From Thioalkalivibrio sp. XN279 (GTDB taxonomy: Bacteria; Pseudomonadota; Gammaproteobacteria; Steroidobacterales; XN24), in contig NZ_JAANBD010000025.1 of NCBI RefSeq assembly GCF_011089885.1, positions 248,001 through 312,000 of the forward strand: a stretch of DNA of 64,000 nucleotides, in the 5' to 3' direction. Below the pieces are notes generated by a model, which searched no databases, had not been told where the DNA came from, and was given only the letters and a program-made list of their open reading frames with translations. Each line of letters begins with the position of its first letter. The stretch's first letter is position 1. The translations under genes and the position numbers were made by a program. This document shows, piece after piece, positions 37,378 to 45,622 of this stretch.

Positions 37378-38004
37378 TCAGGCCACTTCAAGGTGGCTGA
37401 CGTCCCCCAGCCCGACCCGCGTCACGAGCGGCACCGGCCCGGTCAGGTCAATGACAGAGGTCGACTCGAGCGCGCACGGTCCGCCGTCGACAACCGCCGC
37501 GAGTTCATGATCGAGCAGTTCCCTGATCTCCCAGGCCGCGTTCATGGGATGGATTTGCCCCGGCAACTGCAGCGTGGTGCTCAGCAGCGGCTCTGGCAGT
37601 GCCTCCAATAGCGCCAGCGCGATCGGGTTGGCCGGCACCCTGATGCCGATGGTCTTGCGCTTCGGGTGCTGAAGCCGGTTCGGCACCTGTCGGGTCGCGG
37701 GCAGGATGAACGTGTAAGGTCCCGGCGTGAGCGCGCGAAGCAAGCGATAGGCCTGGTTGTCGACCCGCGCGTAGCTGGACAGCTCCGAGAGCCCCTCGCA
37801 TACCAGGGTGAAATGGTGCTGCTTGTCCAGGTGTTTCAGGCGCCGAATACGCTCCTGCGCACTCTTGTCGCCCATGGCCCACCCGAAGGCATATGAAGAG
37901 TCGGTCGGGTACGCGACAATACCCCCGGCCTCGACGAGCGACGCCACTTCCCGCACCAGTCTCGGCTGCGGGTTATCAGGGTGAATCTCGAAGAATTCGG
38001 CCAT
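37378..38004 (-). CDS. YrdC/Sua5-family protein, YciO type
   Basis: 208-residue protein of the family that makes threonylcarbamoyl-AMP for the t6A base of tRNA. The nucleotide-binding text GGIVAYPTDSSYAFGWA, KRKTIGIRVP and STSVIDLTG is visible. The missing C-terminal Sua5 domain and the overall text fit YciO, whose role in t6A is doubtful, so the reaction is not assured. It is divergent from the bolA-like gene with 47 bases between. Confidence 0.85.
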   Translation of the reverse strand: MAEFFEIHPDNPQPRLVREVASLVEAGGIVAYPTDSSYAFGWAMGDKSAQERIRRLKHLDKQHHFTLVCEGLSELSSYARVDNQAYRLLRALTPGPYTFILPATRQVPNRLQHPKRKTIGIRVPANPIALALLEALPEPLLSTTLQLPGQIHPMNAAWEIRELLDHELAAVVDGGPCALESTSVIDLTGPVPLVTRVGLGDVSHLEVA

Positions 38005-38051
38005 GGCCGCAATTCTATCCCGAGAGCCCTTTACAGCATGAGGATTTCGGC

Positions 38052-38324
38052 ATGACCCAAGCCCGCACGGAAATGATTCGCCGCTGCCTCGCGGAAGCGC
38101 TGGCGCCGGAGATGCTCGAAATCGAGGATGAGAGCCACCTCCACGCCGGGCATGCCGGGGCGCGGGACGGCCGCGGACACTTTCGCGTCACTGTTGTCTC
38201 GCCACGCTTTGCCGGCCTGTCCCGGATCGCCCGGCATCGCCTGGTGTTCGCGGCCCTCGAGGACCTGATGCATACGGACATTCACGCCCTGACCCTGCAG
38301 GCATTCAGCCCTGAAGAAGTGTGA
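38052..38324 (+). CDS. BolA-family protein
   Basis: 90-residue protein of the BolA/IbaG family, which works with monothiol glutaredoxins in iron-sulfur cluster handling. The conserved fold text is HFRVTVVSPRFAGLSRIARHR, with His residues in SHLHAGH that could ligate a cluster. AGGA lies upstream of the ATG at 38052. A longer open frame upstream runs into the divergent gene and is not used. BolA and IbaG cannot be told apart with certainty. Confidence 0.9.
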   Translation: MTQARTEMIRRCLAEALAPEMLEIEDESHLHAGHAGARDGRGHFRVTVVSPRFAGLSRIARHRLVFAALEDLMHTDIHALTLQAFSPEEV

Positions 38325-38918: not shown

Positions 38919-38946
38919 TTGACCAGATTACGAGGCTGGTTATAGT
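38919..38946 (+). promoter_or_regulatory. Sigma-70 promoter for the DUF6502-repeat operon
   Basis: TTGACC (38919-38924), 16 bases, TATAGT (38941-38946): five of six consensus bases in each hexamer. Transcription would start near 38953, about 50 bases before the ATG at 39002, which has GAGGG just upstream. This is the best-looking promoter in the window. Confidence 0.65.
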
Positions 38947-39001
38947 CAAATTCACCACGCCGCTGTGGTCTTTTCCCATCTCATGCAACGACCGAGGGCG
39001 A

Positions 39002-39907
39002 ATGAACCTGGCTCCCCGCACATCGCGATTCGACACATTAGTCAGCTCAGTTGGTGACCACGTTCGGGCGGTCTACGTAGCTGCCTTCCGGAACCTGATG
39101 TTGCCCATTGTCAGAATGGCAATGCGGCATGGCCTGTCGCACGACGACCTTCATGAAGCCCTTAGACGATCCATCGCCGAGTGCGCAAAGGATTTGCATC
39201 CATCGGCTGCAACCTCGGATTCGCAACTCGCGATCCTCACGGGCCTGTCAAGGCCCCAAGCGGCACGTATACGGGCAACCATCGACGTAGGTGCCGCAGA
39301 GGAGTTGAGCAACTTGACGCTGATCGGACGTCTCATAGCCGGTTGGCAAAGAGACTTCTCCGGGCCTTATGGGGTACCGAAAGAACTCCCCCTCACCCCC
39401 GGTGAACACACCTTTCCAGACCTGGTCCGGAGGATCGCCGGACGCAGGCCTCCTAGTGATGTCTTAGAGGAGCTTAAAAAAGTTGGCGTGGTTGAGCTAA
39501 CGAAGTCGGGCCGGGCCAAGCTTACCAACCGACCATATATCACTGGCCGACTTCGCCCGGAAAGTGTCGAGCGAATGAGCTGGGTCATTCGCGACCTTGC
39601 AGAGACACTGGATTACAACCTCAACCCTGATCGAGAAGGCCCTGCCCGATTTGAGCGGCGCATGTACACGCACGAGCCTCTCTCAGGCCAACTTCTGGCT
39701 GGTTTCCGTTTGTTAGCGAAGGATGAAGGCCAGGCATTTCTTGCGCGCTTGGACAGCTGGCTCAACGAACAGCTCAAAGAAATTCGAAAACGCCGCAGGC
39801 AATCCGGCGCTCCCTATCAACCGCTCTCAGACCTCCCCGATGCCAAACACGTAGGTGTTGGCGTCTATTGGTTTGAAAAAGACACTCTCGACGCCGAGGA
39901 AAGTTAG
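39002..39907 (+). CDS. DUF6502-like protein A (putative HTH regulator)
   Basis: 301-residue soluble protein. It is clearly homologous to the convergent gene at 41991-42830: both have an N-terminal helical part (LPIVRMAMRHGLSHDDL), the helix-turn-helix-like text LTGLSRPQAARIR, ERRMYTHEP, LDSWLNEQ and the end GVGVYWFEKD. I recall this pattern as DUF6502, a family of unknown function; the assignment is from memory. No signal peptide. It ends two bases before the exported repeat protein, so the two are almost certainly co-translated. A role as regulator of that gene is inferred only. G+C is lower than in flanking genes. Confidence 0.75.
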   Translation: MNLAPRTSRFDTLVSSVGDHVRAVYVAAFRNLMLPIVRMAMRHGLSHDDLHEALRRSIAECAKDLHPSAATSDSQLAILTGLSRPQAARIRATIDVGAAEELSNLTLIGRLIAGWQRDFSGPYGVPKELPLTPGEHTFPDLVRRIAGRRPPSDVLEELKKVGVVELTKSGRAKLTNRPYITGRLRPESVERMSWVIRDLAETLDYNLNPDREGPARFERRMYTHEPLSGQLLAGFRLLAKDEGQAFLARLDSWLNEQLKEIRKRRRQSGAPYQPLSDLPDAKHVGVGVYWFEKDTLDAEES

Positions 39908-39909
39908 AA

Positions 39910-41832
39910 ATGGTTATCACGCGGAATCCAAAACAAGTGAAAGTTGCGATCTTGGCGTTATCTTCGGCGCTAACTCTTTGTTCCGGCTCAGCAATAGGTG
40001 AACAACCGCGTCATGTGGAGCTGTCTCGAGCAATCGCCGCCGAGTTTCAGCAAGGAGTGACCCTCAAAGGCATCCTCTTTTTGGGCCCCGTCGAGCGAAT
40101 CAGTTCTGACGGCCACCAAATTGAAATCTTAGGGAATCAGATCCCAAACCTGGAGCTTGCGCAGAGCCTTCTGCCAGCACAGTACGTTGCAGTCTACGGA
40201 GCTTTTGATAATGACGGTTCGATGGAGATCTCAAGGATCGAACTGCTCGATGAAGTCTATGCTCCCGGCTCCTCACCGGTCATTGCCGTTGGCACTCTCC
40301 TTCCATCGGGTTTTGGGCCAGGGTATGCCTCACTCGGCAGGACAGAAATAAATGCGGTCGCATTAGAAGGCTTTGGAGATTGGTCTACTGACCAGTTTGG
40401 CAAGGCCGGAGTCGTTTTCGGTACTCAGCCAATTGCCGGCGCTTCCATCGATGTTGTTGGGCTCGCGACTTTTGACCACAGTTCAGAACTTCTGTTTGAC
40501 GAATCTATGGTCCGCGACAGAGGGGTTGATAGACCAAGCATTTCTGTACGTGGCCGTGGAATAGATGGATCCGGCATGGTGACGTTGGGTAGAGGCATCG
40601 ACGGCTCGGGTGCCTTCACCAAGGGTATCGACGGATCGGGTGCTTCCACCAAGGGCATCGACGGCTCGGGCGCCTCCACCAAGGGTATCGACGGTTCGGG
40701 TGCTTCCACCAAGGGGATTGACGGCTCCGGTGCCTCCACCAAGGGTATCGACGGTTCCGGCGCCTCCACCAAGGGCATCGACGGTTCCGGTGCCTCCACC
40801 AAGGGCATCGACGGTTCCGGTGCCTCCACCAAGGGTATCGACGGTTCCGGCGCCTCCACCAAGGGTATCGATGGATCGGGCGCCTCCACCAAGGGTATCG
40901 ATGGATCGGGTGCCTCCACCAAGGGCATCGACGGCTCGGGTGCTTCCACCAAGGGCATCGACGGCTCGGGCGCCTCCACCAGGGGTATCGATGGATCGGG
41001 TGCCTCCACCAAGGGCATCGACGGCTCGGGTGCTTCCACCAAGGGGATTGACGGTTCCGGTGCCTCCACCAAGGGCATCGACGGCTCGGGTGCTTCCACC
41101 AAGGGTATCGACGGCTCGGGCGCTTCCACCAAGGGTATCGACGGTTCCGGCGCCTCCACCAAGGGGATTGACGGTCCCGGTGCCTCCACCAAGGGCATCG
41201 ACGGCTCGGGTGCTTCCACCAAGGGTATCGACGGTTCCGGTGCCTCCACCAAGGGTATCGACGGCTCGGGTGCTTCCACCAAGGGGATTGACGGTTCCGG
41301 TGCTTCCACCAAGGGGATTGACGGTTCCGGTGCCTCCACCAAGGGCATCGACGGCTCGGGTGCTTCCACCAAGGGGATTGACGGCTCCGGTGCCTCCACC
41401 AAGGGTATCGACGGTTCCGGCGCCTCCACCAAGGGGATTGACGGTTCCGGTGCCTCCACCAAGGGTATCGACGGCTCGGGTGCTTCCACCAAGGGTATCG
41501 ACGGCTCGGGTGCTTCCACCAAGGGTATCGACGGCTCGGGTGCTTCCACCAAGGGCATCGACGGCTCGGGTGCTTCCACCAAGGGCATCGACGGCTCGGG
41601 TGCTTCCACCAAGGGTATCGACGGCTCGGGTGCTTCCACCAAGGGCATCGACGGCTCGGGTGCTTCCACCAAGGGGATTGACGGTTCCGGTGCCTCCACC
41701 AAGGGCATCGATGGCTCGGGTGCTTCCACCAAGGGCATCGACGGCTCGGGTGCTTCCACCAAGGGTATCGACGGCTCGGGTGCTTCCACCAGGGGAATTG
41801 ACGGTTCCGGCGCCTCAACCAAGGGGTATTGA
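39910..41832 (+). CDS. Exported protein with OB-like domain and 40 decapeptide repeats
   Basis: 640 residues. A hydrophobic signal peptide (about 10-28, before EQPRHVEL) is followed by a domain of about 190 residues with text like GPVERISSDGHQIEILGN and YVAVYGAFDNDGSMEISRIEL, which resembles the DUF5666 beta-barrel (inference). Residues 238-637 are 40 copies of KGIDGSGAST, preceded by two weaker copies. Substitutions are two Lys-to-Arg and one Ser-to-Pro. The frame stops at KGY* two codons into unit 41, while the +1 frame restores GIDGS and a 30-residue tail ending at 41917, so this is probably a recently truncated protein. Location: periplasm, surface or secreted. Function unknown. Confidence 0.8.
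   Translation: MVITRNPKQVKVAILALSSALTLCSGSAIGEQPRHVELSRAIAAEFQQGVTLKGILFLGPVERISSDGHQIEILGNQIPNLELAQSLLPAQYVAVYGAFDNDGSMEISRIELLDEVYAPGSSPVIAVGTLLPSGFGPGYASLGRTEINAVALEGFGDWSTDQFGKAGVVFGTQPIAGASIDVVGLATFDHSSELLFDESMVRDRGVDRPSISVRGRGIDGSGMVTLGRGIDGSGAFTKGIDGSGASTKGIDGSGASTKGIDGSGASTKGIDGSGASTKGIDGSGASTKGIDGSGASTKGIDGSGASTKGIDGSGASTKGIDGSGASTKGIDGSGASTKGIDGSGASTKGIDGSGASTRGIDGSGASTKGIDGSGASTKGIDGSGASTKGIDGSGASTKGIDGSGASTKGIDGSGASTKGIDGPGASTKGIDGSGASTKGIDGSGASTKGIDGSGASTKGIDGSGASTKGIDGSGASTKGIDGSGASTKGIDGSGASTKGIDGSGASTKGIDGSGASTKGIDGSGASTKGIDGSGASTKGIDGSGASTKGIDGSGASTKGIDGSGASTKGIDGSGASTKGIDGSGASTKGIDGSGASTKGIDGSGASTKGIDGSGASTKGIDGSGASTRGIDGSGASTKGY
40561..41820 (+). repeat. 30-bp tandem repeat array (42 units, 40 near-perfect)
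   Basis: Contiguous 30-base units of the form AAGGGTATCGACGGTTCCGG plus TGCCTCCACC, with no spacers, all in frame with the host gene. The two units at 40561-40620 are degenerate and the 40 from 40621 onward are near-identical. Variation sits at third codon positions of Gly, Ile, Asp, Ser and Ala, while AAG, TCC and ACC hardly change. Subtypes (for example AAGGGGATTGACGG) recur at separated sites, as expected from unequal crossing-over or slippage. Confidence 0.97.
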
Positions 41833-41917
41833 TGGTTCTGTTACGTCTGCCCAGAGCAGCATTGAGCAGAATGGGAGGATGAACGAAGCCTGCGAACCCG
41901 ACCCGGGCAAAGCCTAG
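41825..41917 (+). other. Out-of-frame C-terminal remnant of the repeat protein
   Basis: Reading from GGT at 41825 gives GIDGSVTSAQSSIEQN and then a further 14 residues to a TAG at 41915-41917. It starts exactly as the next repeat unit would. The upstream frame reads AAGGGG TAT TGA where units normally read AAGGGT ATC GAC, so one extra G in a G run explains the break. Slippage, real mutation or a sequencing error are all possible. Confidence 0.7.
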
Positions 41918-41942
41918 AAGAAGCTATAGAACAGTCGACCGT

Positions 41943-41976
41943 GAAAGAGGGGTGTAAAGCACCCCTCTTTCGTTTT
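41943..41976 (+). terminator. Terminator between the repeat gene and the convergent DUF6502 gene
   Basis: Perfect 12-bp stem (GAAAGAGGGGTG / CACCCCTCTTTC) with a 5-base loop, followed by GTTTT on the plus strand. It lies just after the out-of-frame tail, so the transcript originally covered that tail. It may also work weakly in the other direction. Confidence 0.85.
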
Positions 41977-41990
41977 CCGAGTTGCAGTTC

Positions 41991-42830
41991 CTAGATAACT
42001 TCCTCTGGCTGTTCTCCGGCAACGGAGTCATCGAAGAAATAGACTCCTACACCAATTCGCCTGATAACCCCTTCACCATCGAGTTGAGGTGTACTGGATT
42101 CGCGCTCGCTTAACCAAGTATGCAAGTCCTGAAGCAGAAGCTCAGATTTATCTCGAGCGAGCTTCTTGAAACGCGAGCGTTGTGACACCGCTAACCTGTC
42201 AGAATAAACCCGGCGCTCCACGAACCTTACTTCGGGATCTTCACATTCCAAATTATGGACAATCGTAGAAGCCAGATCGCGTAGCGCCCCTCCAGCAAAG
42301 AGAATCCGCAGTGGATCATGTGGCTCTGGGATATAAGAACGCGAGACTACCCGCAGGTTCTCGCCCTCTTTAACCACAGACCCAGCCCGCAATAACTCAT
42401 TGAGCATTGCCATAGGAGGGATATCTCCACCGGCACGGGACACTAAGTTGCGGAATGATATTTTGGAACCGTCGAACTCGAGAATCTTGGGTTGCCCTTG
42501 AGAATCTTGAAAGTCGGGATCTGTATGCCAGATGGTGAGCACTAACTCTGGACGCCGAGTACGACTTGGGATCTTAAGCGTTCCGCCGGAGATCAACTCG
42601 CGGACCCTTTTAATCTCCTTACGCGATAGTCCGGTCATCACGGCGACACGTGACATATTCGTTTTGCGGCCACGGATACCGTAATCCTCGCTGGCCACCT
42701 CCACAAACGCATTTTTCGCGATTTCGGCAAACTCTTGATACCCAACACCGTTCTTAATAAGAAGGCGGGCTATCGGCCGAAGAAATGCATAACAGGCGCT
42801 TAAGACAGCTGATTGGATGCCAGTCGGCAT
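41991..42830 (-). CDS. DUF6502-like protein B (putative HTH regulator)
   Basis: 279 residues, paralogous to the protein at 39002-39907: an N-terminal helical segment (LRPIARLLIKNGVGYQEFAEI), a helix-turn-helix-like MTGLSRKEIKRVREL, then FVERRVYSD, LHTWLSER and the end GVGVYFFDDS. Identity between the two is moderate, so they are old paralogues rather than a fresh copy. No signal peptide; probably a cytoplasmic DNA-binding or adaptor protein. It points towards the repeat gene and lies 63 bases after ligA on the same strand, and I see no clear terminator between. Its lower G+C matches the island. Confidence 0.75.
   Translation of the reverse strand: MPTGIQSAVLSACYAFLRPIARLLIKNGVGYQEFAEIAKNAFVEVASEDYGIRGRKTNMSRVAVMTGLSRKEIKRVRELISGGTLKIPSRTRRPELVLTIWHTDPDFQDSQGQPKILEFDGSKISFRNLVSRAGGDIPPMAMLNELLRAGSVVKEGENLRVVSRSYIPEPHDPLRILFAGGALRDLASTIVHNLECEDPEVRFVERRVYSDRLAVSQRSRFKKLARDKSELLLQDLHTWLSERESSTPQLDGEGVIRRIGVGVYFFDDSVAGEQPEEVI

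Positions 42831-42893: not shown

Positions 42894-45622
<2,729 letters not shown>

Follow-up and report, generated by a model that had tools for sequence, protein, structure and literature searches.

DUF6502 regulators and their exported hexapeptide-bearing neighbours: a candidate HetR/PatX-like peptide-receptor module

The stretch of Thioalkalivibrio sp. XN279 DNA analysed here (contig NZ_JAANBD010000025.1, positions 248,001 to 312,000; 64,000 nucleotides, referred to as the window) contains two genes of the DUF6502 family, DUF6502-A and DUF6502-B, that flank a gene for an exported repeat protein (Table 1). Members of this family are recurrently paired with an exported partner carrying a glycine-rich hexapeptide. 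This hexamer is conserved as a peptide and co-varies with a hood-like region of the regulator, and arginine at its fourth position and arginine at one receptor position exclude each other. The best explanation, with a probability of about 0.55, is a peptide-receptor regulatory module similar to the cyanobacterial HetR/PatX module, in which the repeat protein of the window would be a multi-copy peptide precursor. The DUF6502 gene pair is little studied, occurs in rhizobia too and is not a local oddity of the window.

The pairing was followed in a set of 120 loci plus the window. The DUF6502 model PF20112 matched 42 of 59 relatives from the order of the window, 201 of 296 genomes drawn from that order and 99 of 369 sampled genomes of its class; a plasmid search with one DUF6502 query returned 74 records, 66 of them from Rhizobium, R. 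etli CFN 42 included. At class loci outside the order, the motif [IVLME]-x-G-[ST]-G was sought behind a hydrophobic segment, at most 700 nt downstream of DUF6502. A motif-bearing exported partner followed DUF6502 at 35 of the 40 loci examined; among control genes from the same loci, 4 of 123 were positive. The five negative loci include L142, whose sequence ends 133 bp past the gene, L143, whose partner with Calx-beta and fn3 domains has the variant TIGTG only, and L147, where a motif-bearing lipoprotein lies upstream and is one of the four 'positive' controls; L113 and L152 have none. The stricter pattern G[IL]xG[ST]G occurred within the first 100 residues of 25 of 34 class partners, picked by a simple rule for exported open reading frames (ORFs), against a mean of 0.42 and a maximum of 3 in shuffled sequences, and in 0 of 227 other signal-bearing ORFs. 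The looser [IVLM]xG[ST]G was found in 28 of the 34 partners (shuffles 4.3) and in 6 of the 227 ORFs. Among fresh class loci, 54 of 60 DUF6502 ORFs had a motif partner under a pattern slightly widened, after the data were seen, at position 2 (F, E, T) and at position 1. All four plasmid loci (R. etli, Rhizobium sp. C104, Methylocystis, Azospirillum) carry the motif, twice each. The neighbour survey proposed by the first-pass annotation, which looked for repeated pairing with signal-peptide or DUF5666 proteins, was thus positive. The same annotation had envisaged a dedicated control and display system: the recurrent set of regulator and exported partner is strongly supported, and the two are almost certainly a dedicated pair, while display is not supported, the hexapeptide being kept and co-varying with the C-terminus of the regulator.

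Of 67 partners from the order, just 6 have the strict class pattern in their first 100 residues and 11 have it anywhere in the protein; a broad pattern matched 39, where shuffles gave 22 (at most 31) and the 227 controls 39. Judging from these sequences, the motif has diversified in the order of the window. The carriers differ widely: DUF5666 proteins are the commonest recognisable ones, one carrier is a borderline SdrD_B protein, and proteins of 93 and 386 residues have no Pfam match. The lipoprotein-like ORFs of L141 and L265 (about 56-60 residues) consist of little beyond a signal peptide and EGGIVGSGT or EGGITGTGH. Many single-copy partners have the motif shortly behind the signal peptide, and a gene overlap of 4 bases between DUF6502 and partner is common. 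In the genome of the window itself, a third DUF6502 gene, on contig C7, is followed by a gene whose product combines six DUF5666 stretches with the motif GIDRGG. At L062, L066 and L100, DUF6502 is followed by a protein of about 600 residues that starts with AEISGSG close to where the signal peptide ends; its short relatives in L076 and L079 start with AEITGSG, and the L076 protein has an SdrD_B match just under the cut-off. On plasmid p42f of R. etli CFN 42 (L241, 1-7801), a DUF6502-DUF5666 pair with the locus tags RHE_RS27340 and RHE_RS27345 lies between flagellar hook genes and a gene for a methyl-accepting chemotaxis protein. The signal of this partner resembles the twin-arginine type.

In the window, the repeat protein has a hydrophobic, signal-like N-terminus and about two-thirds of it (residues 217-640) is array, as the first-pass annotation had read it. 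GIDGSG occurs 41 times exactly and GIDGPG once, nearly all spaced by 10 residues; Tandem Repeats Finder reported a 30-bp unit in 41 copies at 40597-41825. The protein itself has no Pfam match. DUF5666 (PF18914) matches 6 of 15 homologues, and hhalign aligned the N-terminal region to DUF5666 with a probability of 70 and E 4e-5. The reading frame of the array stops at 41832, and another frame stays in repeat register (GIDGSVTSAQSS...) to 41917; the C-terminus (41820-41917) looks cut by a frame change, either real or from sequencing. Between 40425 and 41822, the 30-bp period also leaves long open frames in another forward frame and on the opposite strand, as mechanical by-products.

Arrays of this kind indicate what is conserved. 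In 16 arrays, the proportion of nonsynonymous differences in the hexamer (pN) was 0-0.032 against 0.2-1.2 for synonymous ones (pS); the count took in only copies with at most one mismatch, a bias that lowers pN. Independent of this bias, all spacers differ in L037, L038 and L045 (8/8, 11/11 and 8/8) and the hexamers AIVGTG, GLGGSG and IDGSGI are kept. Selection thus appears, from the sequences, to act on a six-residue peptide and not on DNA, and not to reflect merely tandem copying. A DNA-level signal was ruled out, the arrays keeping the peptide while synonymous sites change.

Were the hexamer read by the hood, the two should diverge in step beyond what the rest of the same protein accounts for. 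From 101 exported partners, 89 pairs were retained after removal of 5 wrong ORFs by hand, 6 partners without motif and 1 outside the alignment. The six motif-less by the patterns are those of L067, L075, L108, L111, L143 and L152, of which L067 and L111 actually hold AIDRGG; for 28 training loci and the 39 fresh pairs, motifs were typed in manually. The partial correlation with hexamer distance was 0.381 (p 0.001) for the C-terminal part of DUF6502, -0.043 for the DNA-binding part and -0.094 for the middle part, and in 40 dissimilar sequences the C-terminal value was 0.271 (p 0.001). Within the order alone it was 0.418. Sliding windows placed the signal at residues 163-228 with a peak at 163-212, from which the boundary of the hood-like region was chosen, and gave smaller positive values near 4-28 and 68-100. 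Hexamer distance correlated with residues 163-212, given the rest, with r 0.431 in the 89 pairs and 0.606 in the 43 single-motif partners. Four control hexamers from the same 43 partners gave -0.159 to 0.067 with these residues; three of the four correlate with the DNA-binding part (0.151 to 0.265). At the same 19 loci, DUF6502-B follows the motif of the locus with 0.348 (p 0.002) and the operon copy DUF6502-A with 0.221 (p 0.014). In the 39 fresh order pairs both halves of the hood were coupled (0.164, p 0.011; 0.179, p 0.014) and the other parts were not; in 13 dissimilar sequences of this set the coupling was not significant. All 147 pairs together gave 0.442. The permutation p values assume exchangeable sequences, and kinship inflates their significance; as a control, regions were compared within one protein and hexamers within one partner. 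When motifs ending in D and in G were compared, the best discriminating columns clustered at 196-226 and also occurred elsewhere, in a contrast confounded with lineage. Taken together, it is quite likely that the hood recognises the hexamer.

The strongest association of motif position 4 was with receptor position 206, in the RF[EQ]R segment that is order-equivalent to strand beta3 of HetR. In the training pairs, a glycine at motif position 4 (G4) went with arginine or lysine at 206 in 62 of 66 cases, and an arginine (R4) with glycine or alanine in 18 of 18, so that R4 together with R/K206 was found in 0 of 18. In a tree from which the hood was left out, at least 8 changes were counted for the motif trait and 10 for the receptor trait. 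The prediction for positions 4 and 206 was fixed before further loci were fetched. Of 46 fresh order ORFs, 7 had no identifiable partner, leaving 39 pairs with a median best identity to the training sequences of 51%. These comprised 25 pairs with G4 and R206, none with G4 without R206, 6 with another residue at position 4 and R206, and 8 with neither (Fisher 4.9e-5). The six exceptions are five A4 motifs and one S4. Arginine on both sides was found in 0 of 6 R4 pairs and R206 in 31 of the 33 others (p 8.6e-6); the p values for the fresh pairs are optimistic through related sequences. In a class replication set, from which two fragment ORFs lacking the 206 region were left out, all 54 motifs have G4 and position 206 is R in 49 and L or M in 5, the swap direction being absent. 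Within one genus, L065, L103 and L104 have the motifs KIIKNG, KIIVNG and KITGPG with V, A and R, respectively, at receptor position 206.

HetR has three parts, namely a DNA-binding domain, a flap and, at its C-terminus, a hood with alpha-beta-alpha-beta topology; the hexapeptide ERGSGR of PatS runs along strand beta3 of this hood, contacts Glu253 and other residues and frees HetR from DNA (PMC4649674). The AlphaFold2 models, judged by the predicted local distance difference test (pLDDT; Table 1), are confident for DUF6502-B and good for DUF6502-A. Both gave helix-turn-helix and winged-helix matches, as expected of the DNA-binding fold that the first-pass annotation had proposed to look for by structure prediction. 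With Foldseek, HetR ranked first for DUF6502-B (E 0.013, probability 0.84, template-modelling (TM) score 0.28). With VIA-align, HetR filled rows 1-4 for DUF6502-B (Z 8.1-7.5, 212-224 residues, root-mean-square deviation (rmsd) 9.6-10.3) and row 1 for DUF6502-A (Z 8.1, 224 residues, rmsd 7.9). Among the 50 entries listed for each, HetR was the only near-full-length match and the others were mostly single helix-turn-helix or winged-helix domains. The last 100 residues of DUF6502 have the helix order of the HetR hood, with conserved RF[EQ]R and GxGxY at the places of the hood strands; these strands were not assigned by DSSP in the monomer models. Aligned by hhalign with 65 HetR sequences, DUF6502 showed a weak in-register alignment over the flap-hood junction, and with 2 HetR sequences nothing. 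The best explanation of the models is a three-part protein with a predicted N-terminal helix-turn-helix unit, a middle winged-helix or flap part and a C-terminal helix-strand-helix-strand hood, and a HetR-like fold is probable on this basis.

Several results weigh against the reading as a HetR/PatX-like module. The HetR match is weak (TM 0.28, rmsd 8-10 Å) and its Z is the typical best of the tool for models without a clear match, which makes the resemblance a lead with supporting context and not a proof. For DUF6502-A, the rows after HetR (Z 7.2) are tied with it by the rule of the tool, and HetR is absent from the 50 Foldseek matches listed. At the sequence level, the DUF6502 profile retrieved no HetR from PDB sequences at E<=1 and had zero matches in 8 HetR-bearing cyanobacterial genomes, the hhalign score of 22.0 to HetR was reached by 4 of 150 column shuffles, and PF03574 (Peptidase_S48) had no match in the genome of the window at E<=10. 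Nor was PF03574 matched by the window proteins at E<=1 or present among 25 of 40 families listed for 57 DUF6502 members, and a HetR search of plasmids and viral contigs found nothing. A relation to HetR is not established by sequence comparison; since the sequence feature fails and the fold match is weak, membership of the HetR family is not claimed. On the side of the peptide, spacers are as constant as the hexamer in L039 and L040 and largely so in the array of the window, the pN estimate carries the bias given above, and single-motif DUF5666 proteins seem to be more than precursors of a peptide. The coupling is weaker in the class, with a C-terminal value of 0.165 within the first class set alone, and it is absent from the class replication set (hood value 0.059, p 0.23), nearly all of whose motifs resemble GIGGTG. 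Finally, the position-4 rule is broken in 6 of 89 pairs and in 6 of the 39 fresh ones, and the sign test on the tree is underpowered: of 4 independent pairs on supported branches, 3 changed in the same direction, 0 in the opposite one and 1 was unchanged (p 0.25).

In the proposed mechanism, the gene after DUF6502 would make an exported protein carrying the hexapeptide x-I-x-G-[ST]-G, which in the window would have been amplified to about 40 GIDGSG units behind the DUF5666-like domain, one precursor giving many peptides. The lysine or arginine before each of the 42 units suggests the release of many near-identical short peptides. These would be freed outside the cell or in the periplasm and would then re-enter; a re-entered peptide may bind the DUF6502 hood and so alter how the regulator binds DNA, at the shared promoter and probably at other sites, and DUF6502-B would read the same peptide as DUF6502-A. 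Physical binding, DNA binding, proteolytic release, re-import, the sign of regulation and the target genes are all parts that we infer. That the signal is a released peptide has slightly less than an even chance. More tentative still is the fullest form of the proposal, an intracellular peptide-receptor signalling widespread outside cyanobacteria and distantly related to or converged on HetR/PatX, with precursors holding one to about 40 copies of a hexapeptide pheromone and with ligand and receptor diverging together between lineages as pherotypes, including an arginine swap between ligand position 4 and the binding strand of the receptor.

The same co-variation of hood and hexamer would be accounted for equally well if DUF6502 bound the hexamer of the unexported precursor in the cytoplasm and thus sensed synthesis or export of its partner, with no free peptide. 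Operon coupling, often with the 4-base gene overlap, places both products together, and the position of the motif soon after the signal peptide in many single-copy partners fits such a sensor. It leaves unexplained why the motif is repeated tens of times in the ligA loci, far from the N-terminal end, and why there are tiny partners with little beyond signal peptide and motif, and it is considered unlikely. Low-complexity arrays are common in surface proteins, and some partners have SdrD_B-like or Calx-beta/fn3 domains; DUF6502 could then be an ordinary regulator and the glycine-rich repeats act outside the cell in adhesion, metal binding or glycan attachment. This explanation is distinctly improbable: one hexamer on different carriers would be unexpected, as would its co-variation with the regulator C-terminus when control hexamers are negative there. 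The conservation of the hexapeptide across spacers and carriers, together with this co-variation, argues for a ligand of the regulator rather than a surface scaffold. Glycine-rich composition and local duplication alone are hardly credible as the source of the pattern. The partners are indeed glycine-rich and the array of the window is partly homogenised (its commonest 30-mer type occurs in 9 identical copies), yet shuffled partners gave 0.42 against 25 of 34, the fresh loci 54 of 60, and the hexamers stay constant among variable spacers in L037, L038 and L045. A defence system was rejected, none of the three proteins having a PADLOC match at E<=1. One DUF6502 query gave no match in a phage collection, and a PHROGs search gave weak matches only. 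A literature search on the idea of a glycosylated proteoglycan (D-G-S-G) gave nothing.

The layout of the locus largely agrees with the first-pass annotation. The two flanking proteins, described there as paralogous, both belong to DUF6502 and score above the gathering cut-off of 27 bits (Table 1). The repeat gene is coupled to the first of them by a 2-base gap, the second converges on it from the reverse strand, and bolA and ligA on the two sides were identified by profile matches. Among 80 loci of relatives used for synteny (L033-L112), 21 have two DUF6502 copies; ligA is at most about 210 bp away in 20 of these 21 within the order and bolA within 2.6 kb in 16, and the two copies are convergent in 12 and in tandem in nine. 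Because these neighbours are kept across relatives, the two-copy locus is old and fixed in place. A recent horizontal island was ruled out, the set staying beside ligA across the order. The lower G+C noted earlier is seen in DUF6502-A, in DUF6502-B and in the N-terminal domain of the repeat protein, at about 51-58% where the surroundings have about 61-70%, and not in the array (60-66%); as the locus is ancient, the low G+C of the DUF6502 genes is not a sign of recent arrival.

Table 1. Features of the DUF6502 locus, in coordinates of the window
Feature	Position	Strand	Basis or remark
bolA ORF (flank)	37893..38324	+	PF01722 4e-24 over its last 64 residues
Promoter TTGACC-16-TATAGT with CCAG-N9-CTGG dyad, candidate autoregulatory operator	38919..38949	+	Block conserved in L034, L035
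DUF6502-A, HetR-like regulator (predicted), operon with repeat protein	39002..39907	+	PF20112 82 bits; AlphaFold2 pLDDT 85.9
Arg219 of DUF6502-A (RFER motif)	39656..39658	+	Column of position 206 of DUF6502-B; predicted ligand contact by co-variation
Exported repeat protein, 640 residues, putative multi-copy peptide precursor	39910..41832	+	ORF, hydrophobic N-terminus
DUF5666-like domain of repeat protein	40042..40545	+	Pfam match in 6/15 homologues, hhalign
Array of 42 GIDG[SP]G units	40558..41829	+	Period mostly 10 residues, each unit preceded by K or R
Terminator hairpin between convergent genes	41943..41971	.	Hairpin folding energy
DUF6502-B, second HetR-like regulator (predicted), 63 bp downstream of ligA	41991..42830	-	PF20112 158 bits; AlphaFold2 pLDDT 90.7
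Hood-like region of DUF6502-B, residues 163-212 (helix and strand)	42195..42344	-	Co-variation with partner hexamer
ligA (flank)	42894..45077	-	

The single good promoter described in the first-pass annotation stands in part. By consensus alone it is no better than chance, one sigma-70-like site being found (38919-38946) against a mean of 1.5 in shuffles. Its support comes from a block that is nearly invariant in three members of the genus (the window, L034 and L035), with a dyad of the CCAG-N9-CTGG type across the -35 and -10 elements; the long block is its own only match within the window, allowing up to 3 mismatches. The dyad by itself is not specific, since it occurs 7 times in the window against 1.8 expected, six of these outside the promoter block. 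A DNA operator defined by the dyad alone was therefore dropped, specificity residing only in the long conserved block. The conserved promoter dyad and the helix-turn-helix and winged-helix matches of both models suggest that DUF6502 proteins would bind DNA. The strong terminator between the convergent genes was borne out, its hairpin having a folding energy of -23.1 kcal/mol and a z of -5.7; a simple scan of the window for terminators missed it.

A search of one literature collection found no paper on DUF6502, on GIGGTG or on HetR 'outside cyanobacteria'; DUF5666 is mentioned one to two times in each of four papers. The HetR/PatX module is said to have evolved in and to be confined to filamentous cyanobacterial clades (PMC12756182). 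The kind of mechanism is known; what would be new is to find it outside cyanobacteria and with array-type precursors. Should the reading hold, a ligand and a mechanism could be assigned to a large and little-studied family, along with a code open to direct testing, and bacteria other than cyanobacteria would become a place to look for the origin of HetR-type patterning.

Among known systems, DUF5666 exported proteins (PF18914) resemble the window protein in its DUF5666-like domain, to which the window protein adds an array. Peptide pheromones sensed by cytoplasmic transcription factors are best known in Firmicutes, where the RNPP/Rgg receptors are alike in outline, with an exported precursor, a short peptide and a cytoplasmic transcription factor, and have a different fold made of tetratricopeptide (TPR) repeats. 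The closest comparison is with HetR and its ligands PatX, PatS and HetN. PatX is exported and processed by PatP, and its hexapeptide HRGTGR binds and inhibits HetR (PMC12756182). The PatX precursor is reported to be active only when exported. DUF6502 differs in having no significant sequence similarity to HetR, in a motif I-x-G-[ST]-G instead of the R-G-[ST]-G-R of HetR ligands (its partners are exported but carry GIDGSG or GIGGTG in place of the PatX-type RG[ST]GR), in a partner gene directly downstream and in many partners that are large or hold arrays. Its named carriers are Pseudomonadota (rhizobia and others), and in the order of the window there are two DUF6502 receptors per precursor. 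Both systems have in common a DNA-binding regulator with a C-terminal peptide-reading domain, predicted in the case of DUF6502, an exported partner that can be very small (L141, L265), a Gly-Ser/Thr-Gly hexapeptide and, as far as the predicted structure of DUF6502 goes, a resemblance of the regulators over near their full length.

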